A stretch of 13,409 nucleotides of DNA, from NCBI GenBank assembly GCA_008363265.1, contig RHKR01000023.1, positions 1 through 13,409 on the forward strand. Reading direction: 5' to 3'. Below the pieces are notes generated by a model, which did not search any database, was not told the DNA's origin, and worked only from the letters and a program-made list of their open reading frames with translations. Source of the DNA: Chlorobiota bacterium (lineage in GTDB: Bacteria; Bacteroidota; Ignavibacteria; Ignavibacteriales; Ignavibacteriaceae). Position 1 is the first letter of the stretch, and each line of letters begins with the position of its first letter. Made by a program: the position numbers and the translations under genes. This document shows positions 1 to 13,409 of the stretch, piece after piece.

Positions 1-621
1 ATATTCATGCAGTTCGATCTGATCGGCGCGCTCCAGTGGAGTTTTGCTTCCATTATTCTTACGATCGTTGTGATGGACATAGTTGACACGATCGGCACAC
101 TTACGGCCCTTTCGATGGTCGGGGGGATGCTCGATAAAGACGGTCACCTCCCTGATATGCACAAGCCGATGCTCAGCGACGCGATCGCTACCACACTGGC
201 AGGTTTCCTCGGAACCACCACCGCGGGGGCATATATCGACTCCGCGACCGGCATAGAGGCGGGAGGCAGAACCGGACTCACGGCAGTGGTTACGGCGTTC
301 CTCTTTCTTGTGGCACTCTTCCTTTCACCGTTCGTGGCTGCAATTCCCGCATATGCATATTCCCCTGCGCTTATCGTTGTCGGGTTGCTGATGATCGGAA
401 TGGTGACAAAGATCAATTTTAACGATTTTAGCGAGGCGGTACCCGTTTTTGCCACTCTTGTTCTTATGGCTTTTAGCTATAATATCGGTATTGGAATGAC
501 GGGAGGTTTCATCGTCTATATTATCTTTAAAACTGCAGCGGGCAAAAGGTCGGAAATTTCCGCGGGTATGTGGGCTCTCGGCATCATTTCGATGCTCCTG
601 TTCATCATCTATCCGTATTGA
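1..621 (+). CDS. NCS2-family purine permease (AzgA/GhxP type), C-terminal part
   Basis: This is the 3' end of an inner-membrane nucleobase:cation symporter; the frame is open from base 1 and the N-terminus lies outside the window. About 206 residues are visible. The segment FAS..LTIVVMDIVDTIGTL is the NCS2 helix with the acidic D-x-x-D-T-x-G-T signature. Further on, TTTAGAYIDSATGIEAGGRT and then GLTAVVTA match the substrate-site loop and the following helix of the AzgA/GhxP (COG2252) branch, which imports adenine, guanine or hypoxanthine. Four or more hydrophobic helices follow, ending in LLFIIYPY. Whether the substrate is adenine or guanine/hypoxanthine cannot be decided from this fragment. 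The stop lies 37 bp before the preferred era start, so the two may be co-transcribed. Confidence 0.9.
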   Translation: MFMQFDLIGALQWSFASIILTIVVMDIVDTIGTLTALSMVGGMLDKDGHLPDMHKPMLSDAIATTLAGFLGTTTAGAYIDSATGIEAGGRTGLTAVVTAFLFLVALFLSPFVAAIPAYAYSPALIVVGLLMIGMVTKINFNDFSEAVPVFATLVLMAFSYNIGIGMTGGFIVYIIFKTAAGKRSEISAGMWALGIISMLLFIIYPY

Positions 622-658
622 GGCTGGTACCATGAAAGAAAACGGAAAGGAAGAGATC

Positions 659-1514
659 ATGACGACAAAAGCCGGTTTCGTTACCATACTCGGAGCCCCG
701 AACGCGGGCAAGAGCACGCTTATGAACGCGCTGCTCGGTGAAAAGCTTTCGATCACCACTTCAAAACCGCAGACCACCCGCAAGAGGGTGCTTGGCATCC
801 TTTCGGAAGAGAACTATCAGATGATCTTCCTCGACACCCCCGGGATACTTGAACCGAAATACAAACTCCAGGAAAAAATGATGGAGTATGTTAACCTTTC
901 GCTTCAGGATGCGGATATAATCGTCTGGCTTCACGATGCACGTAAAAAAAATGGACACCCCAAAGATCGCCTGCGTGAACAAGATCGATATTGACGAAAA
1001 AAAGACTATCGAAAGCATAGAATTTTTCGAGGAGAGCAAGAAGTTCGACAAAGTGCTTCCCATCTCAGCCCTTGCAAACGTGAATCTGAACATGCTCAAG
1101 GAATTTATAATCGAAAACCTTCCCGAGCATCCCAAATACTATCCCGATGACGACCTCTCCGATGAAACCGAAAGGTTTTTCGTCTCTGAAATAATCCGCG
1201 AACACATTTTCGAACTTTACGAGAAAGAGATCCCCTACAGTTGCGAAGTGGCGATAGAGGAGTTCAAGGAGCGGGAGGGAAGAAAAGATTTTATCTATGC
1301 CATGATCTACGTCGAGCGTGACACGCAGGCGGGAATAATCATCGGCAAGAAAGGCGCGATGATCAAGAAACTCGGTGAGCAGTCGCGTGCCGCGATCGAG
1401 AGTTTCCTGGGACGCGAAGTATTCCTCGATCTCAGGGTAAAGGTTCGTGCAAACTGGCGGAGTGACGAAAAGTATCTGAAATATTTCGGCTACGCGCGTG
1501 ATGAAGAAGAATAG
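659..1514 (+). pseudogene. era: GTPase Era, frameshifted and internally shortened
   Basis: Era is an essential GTPase that binds the 3' end of 16S rRNA during 30S subunit maturation. The first frame (659-994) carries G1 GAPNAGKST, the switch region with PQTTR, and G3 DTPG. The second frame, open up to 1514, carries G4 NKID, G5 SALAN and the C-terminal KH domain with IIGKKG. The frames differ by +1 and meet at an A8 run (944-951); an A7 run would join them. Even when joined (284 aa), about 14 residues that B. subtilis and E. coli Era have between G3 and G4 are absent. A single deletion of about 41 bp would explain both defects. I chose ATG 659 because AAGGAAG lies just upstream and MTTKAGFVTILG matches Era N-termini; the ATG at 632 has no good ribosome site. 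It could be a true pseudogene, a slippage-rescued gene or an assembly error. Confidence 0.85.
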
Positions 1515-1523
1515 CGGAGTCTG

Positions 1524-2459
1524 ATGAACAAGGCCAGACTGAAGGAATTCAAAGCAGAACTTATCCTTCTGCTCCTCACGATCCTGTGGGGAGGCACTTT
1601 CGCGCTGATCAAGAACGCGATAGAACATGTCTCTCCCTTCCTGTTCGTGACGATCCGTTTCGGATTTGCATCATTGGTATTTTTACCTTTCGCGTGGCCT
1701 CATTTGAAAGGATTAACCGCGCAGCAACTGAAAGACGGTTTCTGGATCGGTTTTTGGTTTTTTCTCGGATTCATCCTTCAAACCATCGGTCTTCAGTACA
1801 CCACCGCGTCGAAATCGGCCTTTATCACTGGAACGTTTGTGGTTTTTACTCCATTGGCCCAGACCATTATTGCAAAACGTCCGCCATCTCTTGTGAACTC
1901 GATCGGGATCGGAATTGTAGCCGTGGGCATTATCTTCCTCTCAAGCGGTGACAAGGATATACTCAGCGTGCTCACCGAGCTTGGCGAAACATTCAATTTC
2001 GGTGATTTTCTTACACTCCTCTGCGCGATGTCGTTCGGTATCTATATCGTCTGGCTCGATGTCATCTCGAAGCGGAGCCACTACATCTATTCCACTTTTG
2101 CCCAGCTTGCCTTCACTGCTGTTACCGCGACAGTTCTGATGCCCTTCTTTCACTTCACGGGAGTTGAGGTGATACGGTTCGCGCTCAATTTCGATGTGAT
2201 CGGCGCCCTCCTTTATACGGCCCTTTTCGCGACCCTCTTCAACGTAACGATGATGACCAAGTACCAAAAAGAGGTTGTCCCGGTGAAAGCTGCGATTATT
2301 TACTCATTTGAACCTATATTTGCTGCTGTTATAGCTTTCATTCTTCTCGGCGAACATTTCACCCGAATGGGACTTATCGGTGCCGCTATTATTTTTGGAG
2401 GACTGATATTTACGGAAGTCTTTAAGAAGGAAGAAGCTGGTCATGAGGCTGAAGGCTGA
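1524..2459 (+). CDS. EamA/DMT-superfamily transporter (10-TM permease)
   Basis: This is an inner-membrane protein of 311 residues, the normal length for EamA-family drug/metabolite transporters. There are two tandem EamA repeats of about five helices each. The first begins with LLLTILWGGTFALIKNAI, the typical family opening with the W-G motif. The second ends with the helix pair containing EPIFAAVIAFILLGE, the conserved (E)P..A...A...LGE signature. GGAG lies 6 bp upstream of ATG 1524, and the start is only 9 bp after the era stop, so the two genes are probably co-transcribed. Family members export amino acids, metabolites or drugs, and nothing here identifies the substrate. The last codons run into the GGCTGAA heptamer repeat. 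Confidence 0.9.
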   Translation: MNKARLKEFKAELILLLLTILWGGTFALIKNAIEHVSPFLFVTIRFGFASLVFLPFAWPHLKGLTAQQLKDGFWIGFWFFLGFILQTIGLQYTTASKSAFITGTFVVFTPLAQTIIAKRPPSLVNSIGIGIVAVGIIFLSSGDKDILSVLTELGETFNFGDFLTLLCAMSFGIYIVWLDVISKRSHYIYSTFAQLAFTAVTATVLMPFFHFTGVEVIRFALNFDVIGALLYTALFATLFNVTMMTKYQKEVVPVKAAIIYSFEPIFAAVIAFILLGEHFTRMGLIGAAIIFGGLIFTEVFKKEEAGHEAEG

Positions 2460-2474
2460 AGGCTGAAGGATGAA
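2447..2474 (+). repeat. Tandem heptamer repeat GGCTGAA (3 exact + 1 variant copy)
   Basis: Exact GGCTGAA copies lie at 2447-2453, 2454-2460 and 2461-2467, followed by GGATGAA at 2468-2474. The array encodes the last residues (EAEG) and the stop of the EamA permease. The fourth copy supplies the ATG (2470) of the acylphosphatase gene. The GAAGG formed between units (2458-2462) lies 7 nt before that ATG and is the best candidate ribosome binding site. Confidence 0.85.
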
Positions 2475-2745
2475 GATCAGAGCTAATTTTTTGGTTAAGG
2501 GGTTTGTGCAGGGGGTTGGGTTCCGGTGGTATATTCTGCGTGAGGCCCAGGAGATAGGTGTGACGGGTTTTGTCAGAAATACTTGGTCGGGGGAAGTTGA
2601 GATAGTTGCCGAGGGTGAGGAATGGCAGATAGAGGCACTTCACGAGAAGGCAAAAACCGGACCCATGCGTTCGCGTGTTACCGGTGTAAAGGTGGTGAAA
2701 GATTCCGCGAAAAATGAATTCAACAAATTCGAGATCAGACATTGA
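2470..2745 (+). CDS. acyP: Acylphosphatase
   Basis: This is a small cytoplasmic hydrolase of 91 residues, the usual length, that cleaves acyl phosphates such as carbamoyl phosphate and 1,3-bisphosphoglycerate. The active-site loop is GFVQGVGFR with catalytic Arg at residue 19. The second motif, GFVRNTWSGEVE, carries catalytic Asn at residue 37. The rest has the ferredoxin-like fold pattern of the family. The ATG is in the last unit of the heptamer repeat. The stop TGA (2743-2745) overlaps the TTG start of ispF, which suggests translational coupling. The physiological substrate is unclear, as for most bacterial acylphosphatases. Confidence 0.95.
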   Translation: MKIRANFLVKGFVQGVGFRWYILREAQEIGVTGFVRNTWSGEVEIVAEGEEWQIEALHEKAKTGPMRSRVTGVKVVKDSAKNEFNKFEIRH

Positions 2746-3227
2746 AATTTAGAATTGGCAACGGCTACGACGTTCATCAACTGGCCGAAGGAAGAAAACT
2801 GATATTGGGTGGCATTGAGATCGCCGCCGAAAAAGGCCTTCTCGGTCACTCAGATGCCGATGTGTTGCTTCACGCGATAATGGATGCCATGCTCGGTGCT
2901 TTGGCACTGGGTGATATCGGCAAGCACTTCCCCGACACGGGCGCCGAGTTTAAGGATATCGACAGCAAGATCCTCCTGAAGAGGGCGTACGGTCTGATCA
3001 AGGACCGGGGCTATACGATCGGCAACATCGATTCCACCGTAGTGCTTGAAAAACCGAAGATCGGAAAATACATTCCGGCGATGCAGCGTGTCATCTCGGA
3101 AATTCTTGAATGCAGCCCTGAAGATATTTCTATAAAAGCAACCACCTCCGAGAAGCTCGGTTTTGTCGGCAGGGAAGAAGGTGCGGTTGCGTACGCGGTG
3201 GCGTTGCTTGAGAACTTAAGAACCTAA
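2742..3227 (+). CDS. ispF: 2-C-methyl-D-erythritol 2,4-cyclodiphosphate synthase
   Basis: IspF catalyses the fifth step of the MEP isoprenoid pathway, releasing CMP to form MEcPP, as a cytoplasmic homotrimer with a divalent metal. The protein has 161 residues, the normal length. RIGNGYDVH gives metal ligands Asp10 and His12; GHSDADVLLHAIMDA gives the third, His44. ATTSEKLGFVGREEG near the C-terminus is the cytidine-site and closing motif. Translation must start at TTG 2742: there is no ATG at this position and the family begins right before RIG.GYDVH. The TTG overlaps the acylphosphatase stop by 4 bp. The last codons (LRT) are already part of the octamer repeat that continues downstream, so the repeat has grown into the 3' end of the gene. 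Confidence 0.97.
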   Translation: MKFRIGNGYDVHQLAEGRKLILGGIEIAAEKGLLGHSDADVLLHAIMDAMLGALALGDIGKHFPDTGAEFKDIDSKILLKRAYGLIKDRGYTIGNIDSTVVLEKPKIGKYIPAMQRVISEILECSPEDISIKATTSEKLGFVGREEGAVAYAVALLENLRT

Positions 3228-3228
3228 G

Positions 3229-3242
3229 TGCGCCGCGGCGCA
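3229..3242. repeat. Perfect 14-bp GC palindrome
   Basis: TGCGCCGCGGCGCA is its own reverse complement. It sits right after the ispF stop and interrupts the octamer repeat, which has one unit before it (3218-3225) and resumes at 3245. It could form a small hairpin in RNA, but no T-run follows, so it is not a standard intrinsic terminator. Confidence 0.8.
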
Positions 3243-3244
3243 TT

Positions 3245-3348
3245 AAGAACCTAAGAACCTAAGAACCTAAGAACTGAAGTTCCTAAGTTCCTAAGTTCTT
3301 AAGTTCATGAGTTCCTAAGTTCATGAGTTCCTAAGTTCTTAAGTTCAA
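3245..3348. repeat. Phased array of thirteen 8-bp units (AAGAACCT then AAGTTCNN)
   Basis: Thirteen consecutive octamers keep exact 8-bp register. Three are AAGAACCT (3245-3268) and one is AAGAACTG (3269-3276). Nine AAGTTCNN-type units then run to 3348: AAGTTCCT, AAGTTCTT, AAGTTCAT and GAGTTCCT variants. The two halves are partly reverse complements, so a transcript could fold into a long imperfect hairpin around 3273-3280. An A-run and the lnt ATG follow at 3349-3357. This fills the whole ispF-lnt gap. No CRISPR-like spacers are present. Confidence 0.9.
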
Positions 3349-3356
3349 AAAAAATT

Positions 3357-5024
3357 ATGAGTATATTCAAAAGAATCCCCAAAACGCCTGATGAAAAGGC
3401 CCGACTAAGAAGTGACAGGTACCTGCTGTTAATCGCGGGGGTGCTCATGGGCTTTGCCTATCCGCCGGTTCCGTTTCCTCTGACAGCGTTTTTCGCGTTG
3501 GTCCCTCTTTTTATTGTTCTTGAGAGGCGGGAAAAACTGATCGACCTGAACAGGGCGGCGTACATGTTCGGATTCGTTACAGGTGTCGTATCCCTCTATT
3601 GGGTGGGTGCCTACACCGTGGCCAAGGATCCCTTCCTGATGATCGGCGGCGGGCTGATGCTCTTCGCCAATCCAATATTCTTCCTGATACCGGTAACCCT
3701 TTACTATGGAGTGGTACGGTCAGGGTATTTAAAGCGGGAGCACGCGTTATGGCTGTTACCCCCTTTCTGGGCGGCCTACGAATATTTCTACATGAACATC
3801 GACGTGAACTTCCCCTGGATCACCATTTCGAATGCATTGCCGGACTTTCAGGTCTGGTACAAGTTCAGTGACGTGGTGGGAGCTCTCGGCATGACGATGA
3901 TGGTTATCTGGTTCAACATCTGTGTTTACAGATTATGGAAAGTGTGGCGGTCCGAAAAGAAAACCGATCGTCTTGCACTCCGCCTTCTGAACGTGATTGT
4001 GCTGATCCCTTTGTTCTATGGAATCATCACAACTGATGACAAACCCGCGGAAGAAACACTTAAAGTCGGGCTGATCCAACCGAACCTCGACCCGTACGAA
4101 AAATGGTCGGGCGGCCCCCTCGATCAGATCCTGGACAAATACCTTACGATGAGCAATAGAGCCGTGAAAGAAGGGGCAAAAGTGGTTATCTGGCCTGAGA
4201 CAGCACTTCCCGTTTACCTGATGAGCGGACAGTATACTGACATAGTCGAGCGTATTCATAAGTACGCTGACACCAACAAAGTGGCGATACTTACCGGCAT
4301 GCCGCACATGAAACTCTTCCAGCCGGGTGAACCTTACCCTGAAGGATCCAAAAAATTTCCCGACTCTGAGCTCAGGTACGCCACATACAATTCAGTTCTC
4401 CTTTTCTCTCCCGGTGACCCGGTGGTTCAGCGGTACGGGAAGCACAAGCTTGTCCCGTTCGGCGAGCGCACCCCGTATGTTGATCAGATACCCTTCCTGG
4501 GAGACATGCTGAAGTGGGGCGTGGGAATCAGCAGCTGGAACGTGGGAGAGGGCAGTCAGGTGATAACTGTTAAAACCACCACATCAAAAGGTGAGAGGGA
4601 AGTGAAGATAGGTGCACTGGTCTGCTTCGAGTCGGTTTTTCCCTATTACGCGGCGGAGTTTACGAATAAAGGGGCCGAGTTTTTCGCAGTCGTAACGAAC
4701 GACAGTTGGTACGGCAACACTTCCGGACCATATCAGCACAAGGAGTTCTCAAACCTCCGCGCTTTAGAGAACCACAGGGCCGTTGTAAGGGCCGCGAACG
4801 GAGGTATCTCATGTCTGATCGATCACACGGGAAGGACTGTCAAGACCACAAGAATGTATGAGGAAGCGGTTCTCACGGTTGATGTTCCGCTGCATAAAAG
4901 GGACACGATCTTTCTGCGGACCGCGTCTGTTATACCGTACGCTGTGTACGCAGTTTCGTTGCTCGCTATCCTCGGTTGGATCGCGGCAGTTGTTAAAGAG
5001 AGATTTCACAAAAAAGGGAAGTGA
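3357..5024 (+). CDS. lnt: Apolipoprotein N-acyltransferase
   Basis: Lnt is the inner-membrane enzyme that adds the third acyl chain to the N-terminal Cys of lipoproteins in diderm bacteria. The protein has 555 residues, slightly longer than the E. coli enzyme (about 512). Residues 1-225 form the multi-helix membrane part. Residues 235-510 form the nitrilase-like CN-hydrolase domain, followed by a last helix (about 525-545). The catalytic triad is visible as Glu281 (VVIWPETALP), Lys362 (RYGKHKLVPFGERTPY) and Cys423 (LVCFESVFP). NDSWYGNTSGPYQH is the conserved downstream motif. The start at ATG 3357 has only an A-rich stretch upstream and no clear Shine-Dalgarno; its leader is the octamer array. 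The next gene encodes a lipoprotein, a plausible substrate. Confidence 0.95.
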   Translation: MSIFKRIPKTPDEKARLRSDRYLLLIAGVLMGFAYPPVPFPLTAFFALVPLFIVLERREKLIDLNRAAYMFGFVTGVVSLYWVGAYTVAKDPFLMIGGGLMLFANPIFFLIPVTLYYGVVRSGYLKREHALWLLPPFWAAYEYFYMNIDVNFPWITISNALPDFQVWYKFSDVVGALGMTMMVIWFNICVYRLWKVWRSEKKTDRLALRLLNVIVLIPLFYGIITTDDKPAEETLKVGLIQPNLDPYEKWSGGPLDQILDKYLTMSNRAVKEGAKVVIWPETALPVYLMSGQYTDIVERIHKYADTNKVAILTGMPHMKLFQPGEPYPEGSKKFPDSELRYATYNSVLLFSPGDPVVQRYGKHKLVPFGERTPYVDQIPFLGDMLKWGVGISSWNVGEGSQVITVKTTTSKGEREVKIGALVCFESVFPYYAAEFTNKGAEFFAVVTNDSWYGNTSGPYQHKEFSNLRALENHRAVVRAANGGISCLIDHTGRTVKTTRMYEEAVLTVDVPLHKRDTIFLRTASVIPYAVYAVSLLAILGWIAAVVKERFHKKGK

Positions 5025-5030
5025 AGATAT

Positions 5031-5402
5031 ATGTTAAAAAGAGTGATGATGCCGGTTTTGCTGCTGGCTGTAATGGTTCTTCTCACGGGCTGCAAGGATG
5101 TTCCTTCCGGTTCGCAGTATGATGAACAGTACGACAAGGTAAGAACCTCCGTCAAGGATCTCCTGGGCCAGGAGTATGAGGCGGTCAACTTCAGGGTAAC
5201 CAAGGAGGGTTACACCACAGACGACAAAAAAAACTGGGAGGTCGACTTCATGTTCGATCTCAACAAACCGTACACCCTTCTCGGCGCTACGATTGCCGAC
5301 AAGGAGATACCCGGCAGCATGAAGTTCGAGAAACAGGAAAGCGGCTGGGTCTGCACTTCAAATAGTGGCGATCTTTCAGGAATACTAAAACTCTTAAAAT
5401 AG
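5031..5402 (+). CDS. Small predicted lipoprotein, function unknown
   Basis: This 123-residue protein has a clear type II signal: basic N-terminus (MLKR), hydrophobic stretch, and lipobox LLTGC with Cys21 as the lipidation site. The mature part is acidic and soluble, with strand-like segments (NWEVDFMFDLNK, GSMKFEKQESGW). I recognise no family. The alternating polar/hydrophobic pattern and the ending LSGILKLLK suggest a small beta-rich periplasmic domain anchored to a membrane, which is an inference. It begins 6 bp after the lnt stop and is followed 8 bp later by the M48 peptidase gene, so it is almost certainly in the same operon. Confidence 0.8.
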   Translation: MLKRVMMPVLLLAVMVLLTGCKDVPSGSQYDEQYDKVRTSVKDLLGQEYEAVNFRVTKEGYTTDDKKNWEVDFMFDLNKPYTLLGATIADKEIPGSMKFEKQESGWVCTSNSGDLSGILKLLK

Positions 5403-5410
5403 GGGCGACG

Positions 5411-6136
5411 ATGAAAAAGTATCTTTTTCTACTGCAGTTGTTCCTTGCCTGCACTCTATTCGCTCAGGGAGGAATATTTGATGAGATCACCGGTACCCTG
5501 GGTGACCTCGCGAAGACCACGCTTAATATCGTGGATATCAGTGAATCGGAGGAGAACCAGATCGGTGACGCCCTCGAAGCAGAACTTCAGAAAAAACACC
5601 GGAACGGCTCTTCAAAGAAGTGGGATGTGAACGGTGTGTTCAAGAAGGTGGTTAAGAACGTCACCAGAAAGAAGATCGACTACCGGTTCAAGATCGTGGC
5701 AGACAATGAGGTTAACGCTTTCGCCATCGCGGGAGGCATGATCTATATCAACACCGGGATGCTTAACTTCATAAAATCGGAAGCCGAACTCGCCTTCATA
5801 ATCGGCCATGAGCTCGCTCACATCGAAAAGAAACACTGTATAAATCAGATCAAACTCACCTATCTTGCAGGGAAGTTCGATGCAAATCTGGCCGTACTCG
5901 CCGACGCGCTTATGACGGTCTATTCACTTCCGTTCAGCAAATATGATGAGTTTGAAGCCGACGATTATGGGGTAAAACTGATGCGGAAGGCCGGTTACGA
6001 CAAGAAAGCCGCGGTCGACTTTTTCAACCGCCTCGCGAAGCACTACAAGGAAGCACCCCGTGATCCCGTGAACGATTTCATCGCGACGCACCCCCTGTCG
6101 GTGGAGAGGGCAAAAAGAATAGAGAAAATGAAGTGA
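5411..6136 (+). CDS. Secreted M48-family zinc metalloprotease
   Basis: This 241-residue protein has an N-terminal signal peptide (KKYLFLLQLFLACTLFAQG), so it acts outside the inner membrane. The metalloprotease core has the zinc motif HELAH (His133, Glu134, His137) in AFIIGHELAHIEKKH. The third ligand is probably Glu182 in DEFEADDYGVKLM, the usual E-A-D M48 pattern. VNAFAIAGGMIYINTGML before the zinc helix is the conserved M48 strand. The C-terminal ATHPLSVERAKRI is the ending shared with BepA/LoiP-type periplasmic proteases that act in outer-membrane protein quality control. It is short, with no TPR domain. FLAC at Cys14 resembles a weak lipobox, so lipidation cannot be excluded. AGGGG at 5401-5405 serves as ribosome site. 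Confidence 0.92.
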   Translation: MKKYLFLLQLFLACTLFAQGGIFDEITGTLGDLAKTTLNIVDISESEENQIGDALEAELQKKHRNGSSKKWDVNGVFKKVVKNVTRKKIDYRFKIVADNEVNAFAIAGGMIYINTGMLNFIKSEAELAFIIGHELAHIEKKHCINQIKLTYLAGKFDANLAVLADALMTVYSLPFSKYDEFEADDYGVKLMRKAGYDKKAAVDFFNRLAKHYKEAPRDPVNDFIATHPLSVERAKRIEKMK

Positions 6137-6143
6137 GAAGATC

Positions 6144-7040
6144 ATGGGGAAGACAACCATTGTTATTGGGTCACTCCTCCTCCTGCTGATCGTTGCGGGG
6201 GTTGGGGGATATTTTTATTTCAGCAAAGCAGTTTCTTACGAGGGTTTCAGATCGGTCAAGGTGACTTCGGTCGATGACTCCCTCCTGCACGCCGATGTCA
6301 CTATAGCCCTCAGGAACGGCGCGTTCACCCCGCTCGATCTTGAACAACTCGAAACGCGCATTCTCGGCTCGGGCAAGCAGATCGGCACTGTAACGGTAGA
6401 CTCGGTTGTCGAGCTGGCACCCGGAACCGTCCAGGACCTGGTGCTGAAACTCACACTCCGCATGAAAGAATCGATGCGGTTCTTTAAGAACGCCGGCGAC
6501 ACCCTCGATCTTTCAGTAGCAGGCAAAGCGGTGGCCGGTATCTCCTTTCTTTCCTTTCCTGTCAACCTCGATTTCGCGATTCCCATCGATCTTAACGAAC
6601 AGCTCTTAAACGGCGGAAGTGGTGCCGGTGACGGGATATTCACCTTCAAGGGGGTCGAGAATATCCGTCTCGAAGGGGATTCCCTCAAGTTTGACATGAT
6701 CACTGAACTGAATAATCCTTTCGATATGGAGCTTACGGTTATCTCGATCGACAGTGGCAAGGTTTTCACCCGGGGCAATGTGGCTGGCACGATCTACCTC
6801 TCCGCCCCAGTGACGATCGAAAAGAAAGCCAAAGGTACACAGGCAACGATTAACGCTTCCTGCTACGTTGGTGACATGCTGAAAGCGGGTCCCGGAGCAT
6901 TGCTCGGTGTGCTTGTCTCAGGCGGGCAACTCGAGTATGAAGTAAACGGTTATGTGGTTTTTGAGGTCGCCGGTGAAAGGGCGACACTTCCTGTTAAATA
7001 TAAAGATTCGTTAAGTATCGGGGAGCTGATAAAACAATGA
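6144..7040 (+). CDS. Membrane-anchored protein with two LEA14/WHy-like domains
   Basis: This is a 298-residue protein. One N-terminal transmembrane anchor (residues 5-27, TIVIGSLLLLLIVAGVGGYF) is followed by an all-beta extracytoplasmic part. Two similar halves are visible. The first (about 35-150) has LLHADVTIALRNGAFTPLDL; the second (about 165-290) has LKFDMITELNNPFDMELTVI. Both fit the LEA14/WHy pattern of a strand with N-(P/G)-F followed by a strand carrying small and hydrophobic residues. These domains are linked to desiccation or envelope stress, but the bacterial role is largely unknown and I infer none. GAGAAG precedes the ATG, which lies 7 bp after the protease stop. The stop overlaps the next start by 4 bp (ATGA), implying coupling to the FHA-ABC transporter. 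Confidence 0.75.
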   Translation: MGKTTIVIGSLLLLLIVAGVGGYFYFSKAVSYEGFRSVKVTSVDDSLLHADVTIALRNGAFTPLDLEQLETRILGSGKQIGTVTVDSVVELAPGTVQDLVLKLTLRMKESMRFFKNAGDTLDLSVAGKAVAGISFLSFPVNLDFAIPIDLNEQLLNGGSGAGDGIFTFKGVENIRLEGDSLKFDMITELNNPFDMELTVISIDSGKVFTRGNVAGTIYLSAPVTIEKKAKGTQATINASCYVGDMLKAGPGALLGVLVSGGQLEYEVNGYVVFEVAGERATLPVKYKDSLSIGELIKQ

Positions 7041-9274
7041 AAAAATGCGGAAAATGTGGCGGAAACAACGAAGAGGGAGCTAAATTTTGTGCTGATTGCG
7101 GCGCGCAAATGAACCCGGGTTCGATGGACCGAAGGGTCATAACTGTAGGAAGACACCCGCAGAACAATGTTGTGATCTCGGCCGGTGGCATCTCCAACAA
7201 ACACTGTGAACTGATCGTCCAGGGTGGCGCGGTAACCATACGCGATCTGACCTCCACTAACGGCACTTACGTTAACGGCGCGAAGATCACCGAAAAACAA
7301 TTGAAGAGCGGCGACAACGTGATGCTCGGAAAATTGTACAGTTTCGACTGGCAAAGTGCCATCCGGGTGGGTGAAGCTCCCGTTCCACCGTCAGCGGAGA
7401 CTTCATCCGCGAAGGGTGTTTACATCGTGGGACGTGCTCCCGAGTGCGACAGGGTGATCGACAACTTCAAGGTCAGCAGGAAGCATTGCAAACTCTATAG
7501 AGATGGAAACTCCTGGTTCATTCAGGACCTCGGAAGCAGCAACGGCACTTTTGTTAACGGCAGGCGGGTGACCCGTGAGGCTGTTCAGCCGCGGGACATA
7601 ATAACAGTCGGTGGCACCCCCTTCACGCTTGAGCAGCTCATGTCGGGCAGCAAAGTATCGCTTGAAGGGCTTAACATCGAGGCGCTACATCTGACCTTCA
7701 ACACGAATGAGGGTAAGAAACTGATAGATGATATAAGTCTGACGATCGGACCCGGGCAGTTCATCGGACTGATCGGGCCGGCAGGTGCGGGCAAAACCAC
7801 CCTGATGTACCTCCTTTGCGGAATAAACCGACCCACGCACGGCGATGTTAAGATAAACGGTGAATCGCTTGTAAGAAATCCCGACAACTTCAAGGGTGTT
7901 TTCGGGTATGTGCCTCAGGATGACATTCTACACAGGGAACTTGAAGTTACCGAGTCGCTGATGTACACAGGGAAGCTCCGCCTTGGGCACAAGTTTGACG
8001 ACTCCGCGATCGCAGAAAGGGCGACAAGCGTTATCCAAAAGCTTCGCCTCGAAGAGGCACGGAATGTCAGGATCGGATCTCCTGAAAAGAAAGGGATAAG
8101 CGGCGGACAACGAAAGAAAGTGAACCTCGGACAGGAACTGATGACCGACCCGAACATCCTTGTGCTCGATGAACCGACATCGGGGCTCGATCCGAAATCC
8201 GACAAAGAGGTGATGACGATCCTCCGTGGCATCGCGGATACAGGAAGGACGGTCCTCCTGACAACGCACAACATTTCAGAATCGAATTTCAAGTTCCTCA
8301 CCCATGTGATCGTTCTGGCTAAGACGGGTAAACTGGCCTACTTCGGACCCGCCTCCGAAGCTGCTGCCTGGTTTGGTGCTAATGATGTTGTGGATATTTT
8401 CGACAGTCTGGAAAAAATGACACCCGAACAGTGGAAGGAGAAATACAGGAAATCCGCATACTACTCCAACTACGCGGCGCCTGATACAACTTCGATCCGC
8501 AATACGCCTGTTTCAACTGTGAACCGTGCGGTTATAGATCCGTTCAATCAATTTCTTACACTTACCTCAAGATACTTTACGATTAAACTCAGGGATACCT
8601 GGAATCTCGCGTTTCTGCTGATCCAGGCGCCCGTGATCGGGCTTTTGATCAACCTCCTCTTCAACGACAATGATCTAAAGATACATCCGGTTTTCATACT
8701 TGTGATATCCACGATCTGGCTGGGTACTTCCAATGCCGTTCGGGAGATAGTGAATGAAAAGAGTATCTTTAAGAGGGAGCGGATGGTGAACCTTTCCATC
8801 GGCTCTTACATTGGCTCGAAATTCGCGATCCTCTTTCTCTTCTCGATCCTTCAGTCATTGGTGCTCATCGCGATAACTACCTCAAAATTCAATTTTTCTA
8901 ATGAAGTCTCTCTTTTTGGAGTGTTGATCTTCACCTCGTTTACCGCGACGGTGATGGGGCTGCTTATCTCTGCATACGCGAAAACGGAGGCATTCGCGCT
9001 GACGATACTTCCCTTGGTTCTGATCCCTACTGTCATCTTCGGTGGGTTGGTGCAACCTTTCAATAAAATGGCCGAAGGCGTTCAAGCCTTTGCGGCGATC
9101 TGGCTCAGCCGGTGGTCGTATGAGCTCTCTCTGATCATCGCGACTGATAAAGGCACTGAGGCACTTGGCTTCAGTGAAAACAACACGGGTCTTGATCTCG
9201 CGGTTATCGGACTGATGTTTGTAGTGTTTTTGGTGGCGCTGGTTATCCGCTTGGCCGGCGCGGAGAGAAGGTAA
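7037..9274 (+). CDS. Zinc ribbon-FHA-FHA-ABC transporter fusion (ABCG/ABC-2 half-transporter)
   Basis: This 745-residue single-chain ABC half-transporter has regulatory domains at the front. Residues 4-21 form a CxxC-x10-CxxC zinc ribbon. FHA1 (about 33-105) has GRH at 38, S..H at 53-56 and STNGTYVNG at 73. FHA2 (about 128-200) has GRA at 132, S..H at 147-150 and SSNGTFVNG at 167. Both keep the residues that bind phosphothreonine. The ATPase (about 215-450) has Walker A GPAGAGKTT (247-255), Q-loop Gln294, signature ISGGQ (354-358), Walker B ILVLDE (374-379) and H-loop His411, all intact. About six C-terminal helices (525-742) form an ABC-2 permease. The layout matches M. tuberculosis Rv1747, which is regulated by phosphorylation by the adjacent kinase PknF. 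Ser/Thr kinases also follow directly here. The substrate is unknown. Confidence 0.93.
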   Translation: MKKCGKCGGNNEEGAKFCADCGAQMNPGSMDRRVITVGRHPQNNVVISAGGISNKHCELIVQGGAVTIRDLTSTNGTYVNGAKITEKQLKSGDNVMLGKLYSFDWQSAIRVGEAPVPPSAETSSAKGVYIVGRAPECDRVIDNFKVSRKHCKLYRDGNSWFIQDLGSSNGTFVNGRRVTREAVQPRDIITVGGTPFTLEQLMSGSKVSLEGLNIEALHLTFNTNEGKKLIDDISLTIGPGQFIGLIGPAGAGKTTLMYLLCGINRPTHGDVKINGESLVRNPDNFKGVFGYVPQDDILHRELEVTESLMYTGKLRLGHKFDDSAIAERATSVIQKLRLEEARNVRIGSPEKKGISGGQRKKVNLGQELMTDPNILVLDEPTSGLDPKSDKEVMTILRGIADTGRTVLLTTHNISESNFKFLTHVIVLAKTGKLAYFGPASEAAAWFGANDVVDIFDSLEKMTPEQWKEKYRKSAYYSNYAAPDTTSIRNTPVSTVNRAVIDPFNQFLTLTSRYFTIKLRDTWNLAFLLIQAPVIGLLINLLFNDNDLKIHPVFILVISTIWLGTSNAVREIVNEKSIFKRERMVNLSIGSYIGSKFAILFLFSILQSLVLIAITTSKFNFSNEVSLFGVLIFTSFTATVMGLLISAYAKTEAFALTILPLVLIPTVIFGGLVQPFNKMAEGVQAFAAIWLSRWSYELSLIIATDKGTEALGFSENNTGLDLAVIGLMFVVFLVALVIRLAGAERR

Positions 9275-9285
9275 GAGAAATGTGA

Positions 9286-9300
9286 TCCGCCGCGGGCGGA
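9286..9300. repeat. GC-rich inverted repeat after the ABC transporter gene
   Basis: TCCGCC (9286-9291) and GGCGGA (9295-9300) pair perfectly around a GCG loop, 12 bp after the transporter stop. The loop is short and no T-run follows, so termination is uncertain. It shares the CGCCGCGG core with the palindrome at 3229-3242. Confidence 0.6.
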
Positions 9301-9420
9301 GTGAGGTGTCACGACTTCGTTATTATGTCATTATTGCGGGAAATTAAATTACCGAGTACAGCGGTTTAATTAAAATTGTTATTTTACAAGATACAAAACA
9401 TCGATTTTCAGGAAGGGAAA
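9301..9420 (+). promoter_or_regulatory. A/T-rich leader of the first kinase gene, probable promoter region
   Basis: This is the largest composition drop between genes after 3357 and the only clear break between the envelope set and the kinase set, so a promoter is likely here. An imperfect inverted repeat (TTAAATTACCG at 9344-9354 and CGGTTTAA at 9362-9369) lies in it. A strong Shine-Dalgarno, AGGAAGGGA (9410-9418), precedes ATG 9421. I cannot assign -35/-10 boxes with confidence. Confidence 0.35.
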
Positions 9421-11253
9421 ATGGGCAAAACAGTAAACAACACTTATGAATTGCTCGAGCAACTGGGTCAGGGTGGAATGGGCGTCGTGTATAAAGCCCG
9501 CCACATCCATTTTAAGGAAATTGTCGCAATAAAAAGACTGTGGGAGCAGTTCAGTAACGACCCCATGGTTTTGGACCTTTTCCTCAACGAAGGAATAATC
9601 CTTCGAAAACTTCATCATCAAAATATCGTACAGGTCTCAGACCTCTTTGAGTTTGAGGGGAGCCACTATATTGTCATGGAGTACATTGAGGGGCGAACCC
9701 TCAGTGATATTATCAGGAGAGAAACGGGTCCCATCCGCAGGGAGAGAGCGATCAGCCTTTTTAAACAGATGCTCGAGGGAGTTGCCTATATTCACAGCCA
9801 GCCGAAACCGATAATCCACCGCGACCTTAAACCACTGAACATCCTCGTTACTTCAGATGACACTGTAAAGATCACCGACTTCGGTATAGCCAAGGCCCTT
9901 GATGCCGGTGGACACAGCACCACTGTGAAGGGAACTCCTGTTTACATGAGCCCGGAGCAGATCATCAATCCAAAAACAGTTGATATCAGAACCGATGTTT
10001 ACAGTCTTGGTATGACCTTTTACGAGATGCTCTGTGCAAAAACCCCTTTCCATGGAGATACCACCACAACCCCTACAGCAGTTTACGCCGCCATCATGAA
10101 CGGCGAAGTGCCGCCCCCCACACTTTTCTATCCCGGTATTCCTGACGAACTTTCCGCTTTGGTAATGAAAGCCGTCCATAAAGACAGAAACCAAAGATTT
10201 GCCGATGCCTCAGAAATGCTTGGGGAGCTGGAAAAGCTTGAAATGAGCGGAGCGACCACGGTTCAGGGGACTATAAAAACTGCTCCGCCGGTGGTGAGCA
10301 AACCTGATCCTGTAAACAGAAATGATGATAATAAGTCCAAATCAGACCTTGTTCTTCCGATTGAGAAGGGTGAAGTTAAAAAAGATACAACTTTCATCAG
10401 GTGGCTTACTGCATCTACGATTATGGTGATCACAGGTTTTATATTATTGTCCGGTAATCTTTCAAAGATATTTAGAGTTCAAAGTGAATCTGAACAGGCT
10501 TCAATGTCATCACTTCAGCATAATACTCCAGAGATGACCTTTGTTGCAGGCGGCACCTTTCCGATGGGCAGCTATGATGGTGATTCCGATGAAAAGCCAA
10601 GTTCTCAGGTAACAGTCAGCAGTTTCATGATTAGTAAGACTGAGGTAACCCAAGCATTGTGGGAAAGTGTAATGGGGAATAATCCCTCAAACTTCAAAGG
10701 ATCAAACAGACCAGTTGAAAAAGTCTCTTGGTATGATGCAGTTGAGTTCTGTAACATGTTAAGTGAAAAGGAAGGCTTACAAACGGCATATACAGGTAGC
10801 GGAGATAATATCCACTGTGATTTCACCGTTAACGGTTACAGGCTGCCAACGGAAGCAGAGTGGGAGTATGCAGCGAGAGGCGGTAACAAGAGCAGGGGAT
10901 ACAAATATAGTGGAAGCAACGAAATTGGAGAAGTAGCCTGGTATGGGGGTTGGAATAAAAGTGGAAATCGTTTAGAAAATGATGGTACATCAAAGGTAGG
11001 TACAAAGCAACCGAATGAACTAGGAATATTTGACATGAGTGGAAATGTACATGAGTGGTGTTGGGATTGGTTTGGAGTATACAGTTCTGAGAGTCGGACC
11101 AATCCACAGGGGGCAACATCCGGATCGAATCGTGTCCTTCGCGGCGGTAGTTGGCTCCTTATAGCGAGTTATTGTCGTTTTGTAGATCGCGGAGGCAACG
11201 ACCCCGACTTCAGAAACTACGATCTTGGCTTCCGGTTAGTGAGAACAAGGTAG
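9421..11253 (+). CDS. Ser/Thr protein kinase with transmembrane segment and FGE-sulfatase-like domain
   Basis: This is a 610-residue protein. The N-terminal Hanks-type kinase (about 9-272) is complete: GQGGMG loop (16-21), Lys38, HRDLKPLN (133-140), DFG (153-155), an activation segment with several Thr, and SPEQ (177-180). A linker leads to one transmembrane helix (about 328-345). The C-terminal domain (370-610) is SUMF1/FGE-sulfatase fold: FVAGGTFPMGS, NRPVEKVSWYDAVEFCN, GYRLPTEAEWEYAARGG, MSGNVHEWCWDW, RGGSW and LGFRLVR. With the kinase in the cytoplasm, this domain should lie outside the inner membrane as a sensor. The first FGE catalytic Cys position is Leu580; only Cys585 remains, so FGE activity is unlikely. 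ATG 9421 is preferred over one 45 bp upstream because it matches the paralogue and has a strong ribosome site. Confidence 0.93.
   Translation: MGKTVNNTYELLEQLGQGGMGVVYKARHIHFKEIVAIKRLWEQFSNDPMVLDLFLNEGIILRKLHHQNIVQVSDLFEFEGSHYIVMEYIEGRTLSDIIRRETGPIRRERAISLFKQMLEGVAYIHSQPKPIIHRDLKPLNILVTSDDTVKITDFGIAKALDAGGHSTTVKGTPVYMSPEQIINPKTVDIRTDVYSLGMTFYEMLCAKTPFHGDTTTTPTAVYAAIMNGEVPPPTLFYPGIPDELSALVMKAVHKDRNQRFADASEMLGELEKLEMSGATTVQGTIKTAPPVVSKPDPVNRNDDNKSKSDLVLPIEKGEVKKDTTFIRWLTASTIMVITGFILLSGNLSKIFRVQSESEQASMSSLQHNTPEMTFVAGGTFPMGSYDGDSDEKPSSQVTVSSFMISKTEVTQALWESVMGNNPSNFKGSNRPVEKVSWYDAVEFCNMLSEKEGLQTAYTGSGDNIHCDFTVNGYRLPTEAEWEYAARGGNKSRGYKYSGSNEIGEVAWYGGWNKSGNRLENDGTSKVGTKQPNELGIFDMSGNVHEWCWDWFGVYSSESRTNPQGATSGSNRVLRGGSWLLIASYCRFVDRGGNDPDFRNYDLGFRLVRTR
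11140..11250 (+). other. Candidate DGR variable region (VR-like block) of kinase 1
   Basis: Codons 574-610 encode RGGSW, a 23-residue block (11155-11223), then LGFRLVRTR. The block differs from kinase 2 at 18 of 23 residues, while both flanks are identical. Its location at the end of an FGE/C-type-lectin-like domain is where known diversity-generating retroelement variable regions lie. Base composition also rises at this point relative to the A/T-rich preceding 600 bp. Its variable codons end in C or T rather than only C, so it fits a single AAC template less well than the kinase 2 block. No template copy is in the window. Confidence 0.45.
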
Positions 11254-11397
11254 GTTGTTTTTTGTCTGAATCAGGATTTACAGGATTGTGCATTTGGATT
11301 TACTGCCAAGGTAGCTGTCTGAATCATTGTCGAAGGTCACACAGGGATGCTTGTGGCACATTCCTTCGAGAGAATTTTAGGAATCACAGGATCGGTA
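11254..11397. repeat. Intergenic repeat unit, copy 1 (between kinase 1 and kinase 2)
   Basis: Landmarks in order are TCTGAATCAG (11265), GATTGTGCAT (11284), GCCAAG (11305), TCTGAATCA (11318), CAGGGATGC (11342) and GTGGCACA (11353). The same series recurs after kinase 2. Nested inverted repeats form a possible hairpin: TCGAAGG (11330-11336) with CCTTCGA (11363-11369), and inside it CACAGG (11340-11345) with CTTGTG (11350-11355) around GATG. No T-run follows the stem. Confidence 0.75.
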
Positions 11398-13113
11398 ATG
11401 GGCAAAATAATCAAACCATATGAAGTAATTTCACAGTTGGGACAAGGTGGAATGGGAGTTGTTTACAAAGCCCGTTCGCTAACATTGAAGAACAAGGTGG
11501 TCGCGATAAAGCAGTTGTGGCCGCAGTTCAACAATAATCCGAAGTTTGTGCAGATGTTCCTAGATGAGGGAGAGAAACTCTTCAACCTCGACCACAGGAA
11601 CATTGTGAAGGTTACCGACATCCTCGAAGAGGGGGGTGAGTACTTCATCGTGATGGAGTATGTCGAGGGGCGGACACTCAACGAGATCATCAAACGGGAG
11701 GTGGGGCCGATCGAACGAAAGAGAGCGATCAGACTTTTCAGACAGATTCTCGAGGGTGTCGCATACATCCACAGCCAACCGAAACCGATAATCCACCGCG
11801 ACCTGAAGCCCCTTAATGTACTTGTAACGAACGATGACACTGTAAAGATCACCGATTTCGGGATCGCCAAAGAACTGGAGTATGTCGAGGGCAGCAGCAC
11901 CACGATGAAGGGAACACCCACCTATATGAGTCCTGAGCAGATCATGGATCCCGGATCAGTTGACATAAGAACAGATATCTACAGTCTTGGTATGACATTC
12001 TACGAAATGCTATGCGCGCATACCCCCTTCACCGGAAACCAAAGCACCACCCCAACGGCCGTGTACACTCAGGTCATCAATGACAAAGTGCCCCTACCAA
12101 CCGTATTTTACCCAGATATCTCTGATGCCCTCGTAAATTTCGTTATGAAATCGATCCACAAGGATAGAGAGCAGAGGTTCCCCAATGCTATCGAGATGTT
12201 GAAAGAACTTGACAGACTGGATAGCGGCGGCCAGACGACTGTGCAGGGGGATGGTGGGTTTAAAACGATACATATCCCTAAGGCAAGACCGGAATATAAA
12301 TCTATTCCGTCGCCAGCTGTTCCGCAGAAGTCCGGTCTTGAGCAGTTAACCGGCAATGAGGTGGTTTTGGTCGAAGGCGGCAGTTTCATGATGGGGAGCA
12401 ACACAGGTGATCCCGATGAAAAACCTGTCCACAAAGTTACTTTGAGCAGCTTTTTCATTGGGAAAGTTCCTGTAACTCAGGCATTATGGCGGGAAGTAAT
12501 GGGAAATAATCCATCGCGTTTTAAAGGAGATAATAGACCTGTTGAATGTGTAAGCTGGTATGAAGCTGTTGAATTCTGTAACCGGTTGAGCAGAAGAGAA
12601 GGTCTCAGTGGATGCTACAAAGAGGTTGAGCGAGAAAAAACCGGTCTGGTGGGGAGTTTGTTTGGACAGAAGACCAAAGTAATGTTGTATGATTTCAATG
12701 CGAATGGATACAGACTGCCTACAGAGGCAGAATGGGAGTATGCCGCCCGGGGAGGAAACAAAAGCAGGGGCTTCAAATATTCAGGCAGCAATGATCTTGA
12801 CCAGGTTGGCTGGTACGATAACAACTCCGGTAGTGCTACAAAGGAAGTCGGTACAAAGCAGCCAAACGAACTTGGTTTATACGACATGAGCGGAAATGTA
12901 TGGGAGTGGTGTTGGGATTGGTACTCGAATAGTTACTACAGCTCATCAATTCAGACAGACCCGAGGGGACCTAATGCCGGTTCCAATCATGTGAAACGGG
13001 GTGGCAGTTGGAACTACCTCGCGGAGCACTGTCGAGTTGCCAACCGTGACATCAGCAACCAAGACAGCATGTACTTCAACCTTGGTTTCCGTTTAGTGAG
13101 AACAAGGTTATAG
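11398..13113 (+). CDS. Ser/Thr protein kinase with FGE-sulfatase-like domain, no transmembrane segment
   Basis: This is a 571-residue paralogue of the preceding kinase. The kinase domain (about 8-275) is complete: GQGGMG (15-20), Lys38, HRDLKPLN (133-140), DFG (153-155), SPEQ (178-181). The linker (about 276-318) is short and polar with no hydrophobic helix, so the whole protein should be cytoplasmic. The FGE-like domain (about 320-571) has VLVEGGSFMMGS, NRPVECVSWYEAVEFCN, GYRLPTEAEWEYAARGG, MSGNVWEWCWDW, RGGSW and LGFRLVRTR. It carries an extra stretch at about 408-430 that kinase 1 lacks. FGE Cys positions are Tyr540 and Cys545, so it is probably not an active formylglycine enzyme. ATG 11398 (MGKIIKPYEV) aligns with the kinase 1 start; the ATG 51 bp upstream lies inside the repeated spacer and is unlikely. 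Confidence 0.93.
   Translation: MGKIIKPYEVISQLGQGGMGVVYKARSLTLKNKVVAIKQLWPQFNNNPKFVQMFLDEGEKLFNLDHRNIVKVTDILEEGGEYFIVMEYVEGRTLNEIIKREVGPIERKRAIRLFRQILEGVAYIHSQPKPIIHRDLKPLNVLVTNDDTVKITDFGIAKELEYVEGSSTTMKGTPTYMSPEQIMDPGSVDIRTDIYSLGMTFYEMLCAHTPFTGNQSTTPTAVYTQVINDKVPLPTVFYPDISDALVNFVMKSIHKDREQRFPNAIEMLKELDRLDSGGQTTVQGDGGFKTIHIPKARPEYKSIPSPAVPQKSGLEQLTGNEVVLVEGGSFMMGSNTGDPDEKPVHKVTLSSFFIGKVPVTQALWREVMGNNPSRFKGDNRPVECVSWYEAVEFCNRLSRREGLSGCYKEVEREKTGLVGSLFGQKTKVMLYDFNANGYRLPTEAEWEYAARGGNKSRGFKYSGSNDLDQVGWYDNNSGSATKEVGTKQPNELGLYDMSGNVWEWCWDWYSNSYYSSSIQTDPRGPNAGSNHVKRGGSWNYLAEHCRVANRDISNQDSMYFNLGFRLVRTRL
12997..13107 (+). other. Candidate DGR variable region of kinase 2, NNC-codon rich
   Basis: Between RGGSW and LGFRLVRTR lie 23 codons (13012-13080). 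Fourteen are NNC codons of the type AAC, TAC, CTC, CAC, GAC, ATC, AGC and TTC. These are all reachable from AAC by changing only the first two bases, the signature of adenine-directed mutagenesis by DGR reverse transcriptases acting on AAC template codons. Fixed residues in the block (Ala542, Cys545, Arg546, Arg550, Asp556) match kinase 1. The 3' flank TTAGTGAGAACAAGGT is identical in both genes and could serve as the initiation (IMH-like) region. The assignment is inferred, because no reverse transcriptase or template repeat is visible in the window. Confidence 0.5.
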
Positions 13114-13330
13114 CCTTCAGTCTGAATCAGCTCGCCCCTTTGGGGGATTTACTGGATTTGAGGATTCGTAAGATTGTGCATCTGAGGTGTGCGCCAAGCA
13201 ATTTATCTGAATCAGTACCACAGGCTCTTCAGGGATGCCAGTGGCACATGCTTGTAAGAGATTTTCGAATTATCGGGGTGGGGATGAACTTGATTTCAAA
13301 AAATATTACTAATTAAACCAAAGTAAAATT
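13114..13330. repeat. Intergenic repeat unit, copy 2 (between kinase 2 and kinase 3)
   Basis: This is the diverged copy of the spacer after kinase 1: TCTGAATCAG (13121), GATTGTGCAT (13172), GCCAAG (13193), TCTGAATCAG (13206), CAGGGATGC (13230) and GTGGCACA (13241). It has a 15-bp insertion with the mini-hairpin CCCC-TTT-GGGG (13131-13145) and about 17 more bp before GATTGTGCAT. A hairpin CCACAGGC (13218-13225) with GCCAGTGG (13237-13244) has one mismatch. The last 60 bp are A/T-rich and hold a possible 10-residue reading frame at 13284-13316 behind GGGGTGGGG; I do not call it a gene. Confidence 0.7.
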
Positions 13331-13409
13331 ATGATCAAAAGAGTGAAATATTACAACCTGCTGAAGGTGATCGGCACCGGAGGAATGGGAACGGTCTATA
13401 AGGCTGAAG
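13331..13409 (+). CDS. Third Ser/Thr protein kinase, N-terminal fragment cut by window end
   Basis: The first 26 codons are visible and open to the window end. They read MIKRVKYYNLLKVI followed by GTGGMGTVYKAE, the glycine-rich ATP loop of Hanks-type kinases (residues 15-20). It aligns with the starts of the two preceding kinases but is more divergent. ATG 13331 fits the family start, being about 14 residues before the loop as in the paralogues (15 and 14). It has only a weak upstream AAAG. Whether it also carries an FGE-like domain cannot be seen. Confidence 0.85.
   Translation, partial: MIKRVKYYNLLKVIGTGGMGTVYKAE

Follow-up and report, generated by a model that had tools for sequence, protein, structure and literature searches.

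Two adjacent Ser/Thr kinase genes of a Chlorobiota bacterium (family Ignavibacteriaceae) raise the question of whether the C-terminal ends of such kinases have been diversified by a retroelement. The genes lie in the stretch of 13,409 nucleotides that we analysed and call the window (bases 1-13409, forward strand, of contig RHKR01000023.1, here C40, of assembly GCA_008363265.1, here G000, which comprises 3.44 Mb in 627 contigs and is 82% complete). Each of them joins a kinase domain to a domain of the formylglycine-generating enzyme (FGE) type with a short, strongly divergent block near its 3' end. We consider the two blocks to be, in all probability, variable regions (VRs) of the kind produced by diversity-generating retroelements (DGRs), made by a DGR of the genus, the block of kinase 1 being older and that of kinase 2 younger, with the reverse transcriptase (RT) and the template missing from the assembly, located outside it, or lost. 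Present DGR activity on the window blocks is unproven. The features on which the argument rests are as follows.

9421..11253, + strand: kinase 1, 610 aa, a Ser/Thr kinase domain with a C-terminal FGE-sulfatase (C-lectin-like) domain (Pfam)
11140..11250, + strand: putative VR block of kinase 1, from RGGSW to RTR, with its variable residues at 11155-11223 and a decayed signature
11398..13113, + strand: kinase 2, 571 aa, with the architecture of kinase 1 (PF00069, E 3.4e-56; PF03781, E 1.6e-56)
12997..13107, + strand: putative VR block of kinase 2, with its variable residues at 13012-13080 and a retained signature

Kinase 1 matches PF00069 with E 2.1e-59 (residues 9-261) and PF03781 with E 7.3e-55 (residues 369-608); kinase 2 was used in searches as the span 11401-13110. 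RGGSW starts at 11140 and 12997, and the variable residues have the limits listed above, exactly as in the original prediction. Its central claim, that two close FGE domains differ at 18 of 23 consecutive residues, is borne out as well: the kinases are identical at 174/259 positions in the kinase domain, 22/58 in the linker, 134/201 in the FGE core and 9/9 in the tail, but at only 5/23 in the block (A, C, R, R and D). Given the identity of the FGE core, five or fewer identical residues have a binomial P = 1.3e-5 (a single window set beforehand, uncorrected). It should be noted that the linker between the kinase and FGE domains is equally divergent, and that the lowest 23-residue identity windows fall there; thus, it is within the FGE domain, and not across the whole protein, that the block is exceptional. 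Third codon positions differ at about half of the sites, as was also predicted, with 11/23 equal in the block, which is no worse than the 84/201 found in the FGE core. The variable residues end about 10 codons upstream of the stop codon, that is, near the 3' end of the gene.

A similar pattern is found among relatives of both proteins. Kinase 2 was compared with 14 homologues, one of them truncated and excluded from the block figures; the 13 with a complete block are 17-43% identical to it in the block versus 57-74% in the FGE core. The corresponding values for kinase 1 are 22-48% and 60-71%, based on 15 homologues with a complete block out of 19 (four truncated ones excluded from the block figures). 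For example, three metagenomic relatives (P0001-P0003) share 92-93% identity with kinase 2 in the kinase domain, 59-74% in the FGE core and 17-43% in the block; the values for P0001 are 93, 73 and 35%. Column entropies were calculated from an alignment (A2) of 41 kinase-FGE proteins, i.e., the window's two and 39 others, with kinase 2 as the first row, followed by 40 hand-picked near-full-length proteins (kinase 1 is P0026) chosen from 149 among the matches listed (the best 120 per search). Mean entropy was 0.93 in the kinase domain, 2.34 in the linker, 1.27 in the FGE core, 2.37 in the block and 1.17 in the tail. The consensus RGGSWxxxAxxCRVAxRxxxxPxxRxxxxGFRLVRT has a largely fixed scaffold, and its x columns have an entropy of about 2.6-3.5 bits. 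Within the FGE domain, variation among relatives is concentrated in the block and not evenly spread, in agreement with the focal character claimed at the outset.

Among solved structures, the best match to the FGE domain is itself a DGR variable protein, TvpA of Treponema denticola (2y3c, E 2.6e-51), which has the same RGGSW...C...R...GFRL block; the matched chain of 294 residues lacks a kinase domain and, as far as its accessible description goes, belongs to a DGR system. Annotated VR regions have a C-lectin fold according to the available part of a survey (PMC8144416), and the window's FGE domain is predicted to have this fold on the basis of its homology to TvpA. FGEs proper and other kinase/FGE structures (6muj, 5nxl and 7spq, ToxD) belong to the same fold family and match much more weakly, the best FGE at E 1.2e-24. 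When aligned with 6muj, the block of kinase 2 has one of the two C-terminal cysteines that we take to be the active-site cysteines of the enzyme, and the block of kinase 1 also has one. The single cysteine makes FGE activity of the window domains unlikely.

DGRs with FGE-type templates occur in the same family and in the same class. In genome G014 of the family, an FGE protein frame, a DGR RT and a template lie within 3 kb at a contig end (L080/L195, C8). This template, RGGSWNNNNNNCRVSNRNNNNPDNNNNNIGFRVV, differs from its VR at 15/35 template adenines and at 0/64 other bases; the target beside the RT, a 295-aa frame located at the contig end, begins with a signal-peptide-like sequence and lacks a kinase. 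The second case, G359, is from the same class (L197, C172), and its template, RGGSWNNNASNCRVANRNNNTPDNRNNNLGFRLA, lies beside an incomplete DGR RT frame (194 aa). Template codons of both read N at the columns that are variable in the window kinases. We compared the adenine count of each template codon (first two bases) with the entropy of the matching column in the 41 proteins, and found that entropy tracks the adenines of the G014 and G359 templates (Spearman 0.84 and 0.87, respectively; 33 codons). The template pattern is present in 3/391 genomes of the class, 1/80 of the family (G014) and 0/4 of the genus, and a scan of IMG/VR returned one contig, which carries its own DGR. One of the three class genomes, G384, was rejected because its sequence reads as a VR and not as a template. 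Two further DGRs have templates of other types, L084 (G020:C2:51000-63000; FGGNWNNNTNAG...) and L081 (G036:C57; FWSSTENNAANAY...); these apparently serve other lectin-like proteins.

The signature of adenine-directed copying was studied in congeners of G000, namely G001 (90% complete) and G002 and G003 (both listed as 100% complete). G001 has 25 FGE matches, compared to 10 in G000, and eight of its FGE genes have blocks of equal length; three of these have a kinase motif in the same frame. Twelve codons were presumed to derive from AAY codons of a template; they were picked after viewing the G001 columns and the templates, without use of the G000 blocks. Across the eight genes, agreement at these codons is 33, 37 and 98% at positions 1, 2 and 3, versus 87, 85 and 75% at 130 upstream codons, and the remaining 21 codons of the blocks agree at 94-97% per position. 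The way in which the codons were picked contributes to the low agreement at positions 1 and 2 but does not explain the 98% at position 3. As many as four different bases occur at positions 1 and 2, while position 3 is nearly always C and, in one codon, always T; 87/96 of the presumed AAY codons end in C versus 349/1600 upstream. Such a reversal of the usual codon-position pattern is expected from adenine-templated mutagenesis of AAC and AAT codons. Thus, the codon pattern shows the adenine signature of DGR copying in G001, and the nearly identical third positions suggest that homing was recent in that lineage. One G001 locus, L092 (G001:C28:146000-161661), contains eight FGE genes in tandem, all in one direction and at a contig end, several of them with a kinase domain.

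The window's genome contains weaker traces of the same signature. Across its four complete blocks (kinase 1, kinase 2 and the FGE genes on contigs C309 and C206), the presumed AAY codons agree at only 35, 40 and 60% at positions 1, 2 and 3, versus 80, 79 and 48% at the same positions of upstream codons. Third bases of the twelve codons are 11 C and 1 T in kinase 2 (P = 0.0014 for the excess of C), 12/12 C in the C309 gene (P = 3.7e-5), and 9 C, 1 T, 1 A and 1 G in the C206 gene (P = 0.014). When these four genes are pooled with a third kinase-FGE gene that is cut by the end of C40 and supplies 9 of the 12 codons, 41/57 presumed AAY codons end in C versus 226/1000 upstream (Fisher P = 1.7e-6 for C versus T where the codon ends in a pyrimidine). 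Across the four genus genomes, 153/216 such codons end in C in CR-type blocks. Kinase 2 keeps the AAC-derived signature (12997-13095), and kinase 1, having largely lost it (11140-11238), hardly does. That variation falls in the same columns, that codons of kinase 2, C309 and C206 keep AAC-derived ends, and that the proteins are homologous lead us to infer a DGR origin for the blocks of this genome as well.

The reading that we prefer involves the following steps. A DGR of the genus would have used an AAC-rich template to rewrite the 3' ends of a dispersed family of genes of the kinase-FGE and FGE types. Template adenines, which supply the first two bases of a set of codons, would have been randomised, while third bases and the scaffold residues C, R, V, R, P and G stayed as they were. 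The window copies would have drifted afterwards, kinase 1 being the older product and kinase 2 the younger one, and the RT and the template may reside in the unassembled part of the genome or on an element outside the assembly, or may have been lost. The C-terminal lectin-like domain could serve as a ligand sensor that controls the kinase, in which case a change in the block might alter binding by the sensor and, with it, the timing of kinase firing.

A number of observations weigh against this reading. Third positions agree at only 56-60% among the four complete G000 blocks, so these blocks were not recently overwritten from one template. The reservation of the original prediction, that one identical template did not give rise to the two blocks in their present form, is also correct. 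The excess of C is not significant in kinase 1 (5 C, 5 T and 2 A; P = 0.32) or in the cut third gene (4 C and 5 T; P = 0.69). Moreover, C-ending codons number 79/192 even in FGE blocks that do not belong to the CR group (a control count that, like that for the CR blocks, excluded three blocks of 34 codons and L048 rows), and one such block, L007, has 10/12; thus, the codon test is weak for single genes. Conversely, a CR-type block of G002, L025, has only 2 C of 12.

The searches for the machinery add to these points. Neither RVT_1 nor a profile of seven DGR-RT sequences found a DGR RT in the 82% complete G000 or in G001-G003. DNA searches of G000 with the block of kinase 2, a G001 block and the C309 block gave no template, their matches being FGE gene ends and short stretches that were taken as chance and not each read. 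Searches of all four genus genomes with the G001 and C309 VRs found no template either, and a search of the incomplete G000 assembly with the 3'-end motif described below had the same outcome. As a positive control, RVT_1 applied to 59 genomes, with matches only partly classified, recovered DGR-type RTs in five other genomes of the family, G006 (two), G014, G017, G020 and G036. Of the original proposal, the idea that the block occupies the position at which DGRs vary FGE/C-lectin domains is thus supported by the homology to TvpA, the G014 and G359 templates and the adenine signature of G001, whereas the RT and the template that it called for were found neither in G000 nor in its three congeners.

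RVT_1 has two matches in G000, on C354 and C285, both of which were rejected: they have QGGVLSP or no such motif, versus IGNLTSQ or close variants in the DGR RTs recovered in this analysis, a motif type that we take to be the mark of these enzymes. A weak match to the DGR-RT profile on C338 (E 0.17) is a frame of 164 aa without the G..TSQ motif and was also rejected. The C354 locus (L001/L216, G000:C354:2052-4397) is a long RT open reading frame of 782 aa, which from its length and sequence is presumably an RT-Cas1 fusion; its counterpart in G001 is L200. The C285 locus (L002/L217, G000:C285:5497-8774) consists of an RT gene in a frame of 578 aa followed by a helicase-like ATPase frame; this RT, with counterparts L201 in G002 and L202 in G003, is perhaps of the defence type.

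Both blocks have a conserved 3' end.

11224..11252, + strand: conserved 3' end of the kinase 1 block, at what would, by position, be the initiation-of-mutagenic-homing site of DGRs; motif GGNTTCCGGTTAGYGAGRACAAGG
13081..13109, + strand: conserved 3' end of the kinase 2 block, with 1 mismatch to the GGNTTCCGGTTAGYGAGRACAAGG motif

The motif occurs four times in G000 (up to 2 mismatches), every time at the 3' end of an FGE gene. It should be noted that the conserved 24-base 3' end of the four genes also encodes GFRLVRTR (GFRLARTR in C206), so its conservation may be for the protein. Efficient homing in BPP-1 needs a hairpin/cruciform downstream of the VR, as stated in the accessible part of the report (PMC3240598). 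In the 200 bp that follow them, the two window blocks and the C309 and C206 blocks have no hairpin of at least 6 bp, a further point against a DGR origin. Hairpins follow the VR of G014 and five of the six G001 blocks scanned (out of eight). Stems of 6 bp also occur 3' of the G014 template and of several FGE genes that belong to other types (L009, L059, L079 and L099 among them), and a 7-bp stem arose in 18/300 shuffles, i.e., it is only mildly unusual; the hairpin feature, therefore, weighs little.

The alternative that survives best, though we regard it as doubtful, is a DGR that is active now, whose RT and template, located in the missing 18% of the genome or carried by a plasmid or prophage that was not binned, would act in trans on the dispersed kinase-FGE genes. 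The fragmentation of G000 leaves room for this, as do the break of C40 within the third VR and the FGE genes at the ends of the G001 contigs C6, C10, C28 and C29, as if repeats had broken the assembly; the near-identical third positions of G001 also indicate recent homing in that lineage. Set against this are the failure to find an RT or a template even in the more complete G001 assembly, the drifted third positions of the G000 blocks and the window copies without a downstream hairpin.

That a ligand-binding lectin surface simply evolved fast once its gene had been duplicated, without any retroelement, appears unlikely. Such evolution would account readily for the RT and template not found in the four assemblies and for the third-position drift in G000. 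Such a block can also sit still: in an FGE gene common to G002 and G003 (L059/L060), the block, which lacks the cysteine of the CR group, is identical at 22/23 residues, compared to 663/715 elsewhere. Amino-acid selection, however, is not expected to produce the reversed codon-position pattern of G001, the C-ending codons of kinase 2 and the C309 gene, or the column-by-column match to real DGR templates. It is very improbable that the mosaic arose because paralogous FGE blocks were shuffled or underwent gene conversion. Paralogues are many (the 25 and 10 FGE matches given above), and several G001 genes have near-identical tails and downstream sequence, but conversion moves existing variants with their third positions carried along and does not generate as many as four bases at positions 1 and 2 with the third base fixed.

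At least eight G001 genes have been rewritten from apparently one template, and neither that template nor an RT was found in the assembly. We suggest, quite tentatively, that large, lineage-specific kinase-FGE arrays of this Ignavibacteriaceae genus might be diversified in trans by a DGR that is carried off the chromosome, on an element of mobile or transient nature, with a repertoire of frozen and recently rewritten sensors of phosphorylation persisting once the mutator has gone. The genus is also a test case for the persistence of variable proteins without a detected retroelement, as it combines drifted (kinase 1), younger (kinase 2) and near-uniform (G001) blocks.

The nearest known system is in cyanobacteria, where, according to the accessible text of the report (PMC7517822), a Ser/Thr kinase grafted to a C-terminal C-lectin (CLec) domain is diversified by DGRs at many remote targets. 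The kinase-CLec proteins described there are like the window's in architecture, with a VR that lies towards the 3' end of the CLec gene; likewise, there are several dispersed targets per genome, and CLec-only paralogues occur beside kinase fusions. Those targets were assigned to DGRs of the same genome, whereas neither RT nor template was found in the window's genome. Identity to the cyanobacterial loci (Nostoc and others) is about 30% over the length of the protein, and the host here belongs to Ignavibacteriaceae. Our reading would therefore extend DGR-type diversification of Ser/Thr kinase sensors to this family. As far as its available text goes, a study of Thiohalocapsa PB-PSB1 (PMC10907252) describes CLec/FGE targets with signalling and conflict domains, Pkinase being listed, and considers diversification in trans for incomplete or remote loci; that genome differs in having seven RTs and diversification seen in metagenomes. 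FGE-fused conflict systems with DGRs are also on record in the accessible part of PMC7159879. A limited literature search for DGRs in Ignavibacteria returned only one paper which, in its accessible part, places its DGRs in Gammaproteobacteria.

A third kinase-FGE gene begins at the end of the window.

13331..13409, + strand: third kinase-FGE gene, start only, MIKRVKYYNLLKVIGTGGMGTVYKAE

Directly after the window there are 16 unknown bases (C40 13410-13425) inside this gene. It goes on with kinase and FGE parts (L008/L091; FGE match at C40:14697-15353) until C40 stops at 15365 within its VR block (...PDR). The kinase genes are preceded by a gene that we named by eye as an FHA-ABC transporter, with orthologues 59-63% identical in G001-G003. 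There, the orthologue is followed by a convergent phosphomannomutase-like gene (also named by eye) with no kinase between; thus, the kinase-FGE cluster at this place is lineage-specific among the four genomes. An Rfam scan of the window returned no matches. Both VR genes are followed by alike intergenic sequence (11265-11300 and 13120-13160), GTCTGAATCAG ... GATTTAC[AT]GGATT, the latter part of which has one further copy each on the C254 and C242 stretches; it is possibly a dispersed repeat.

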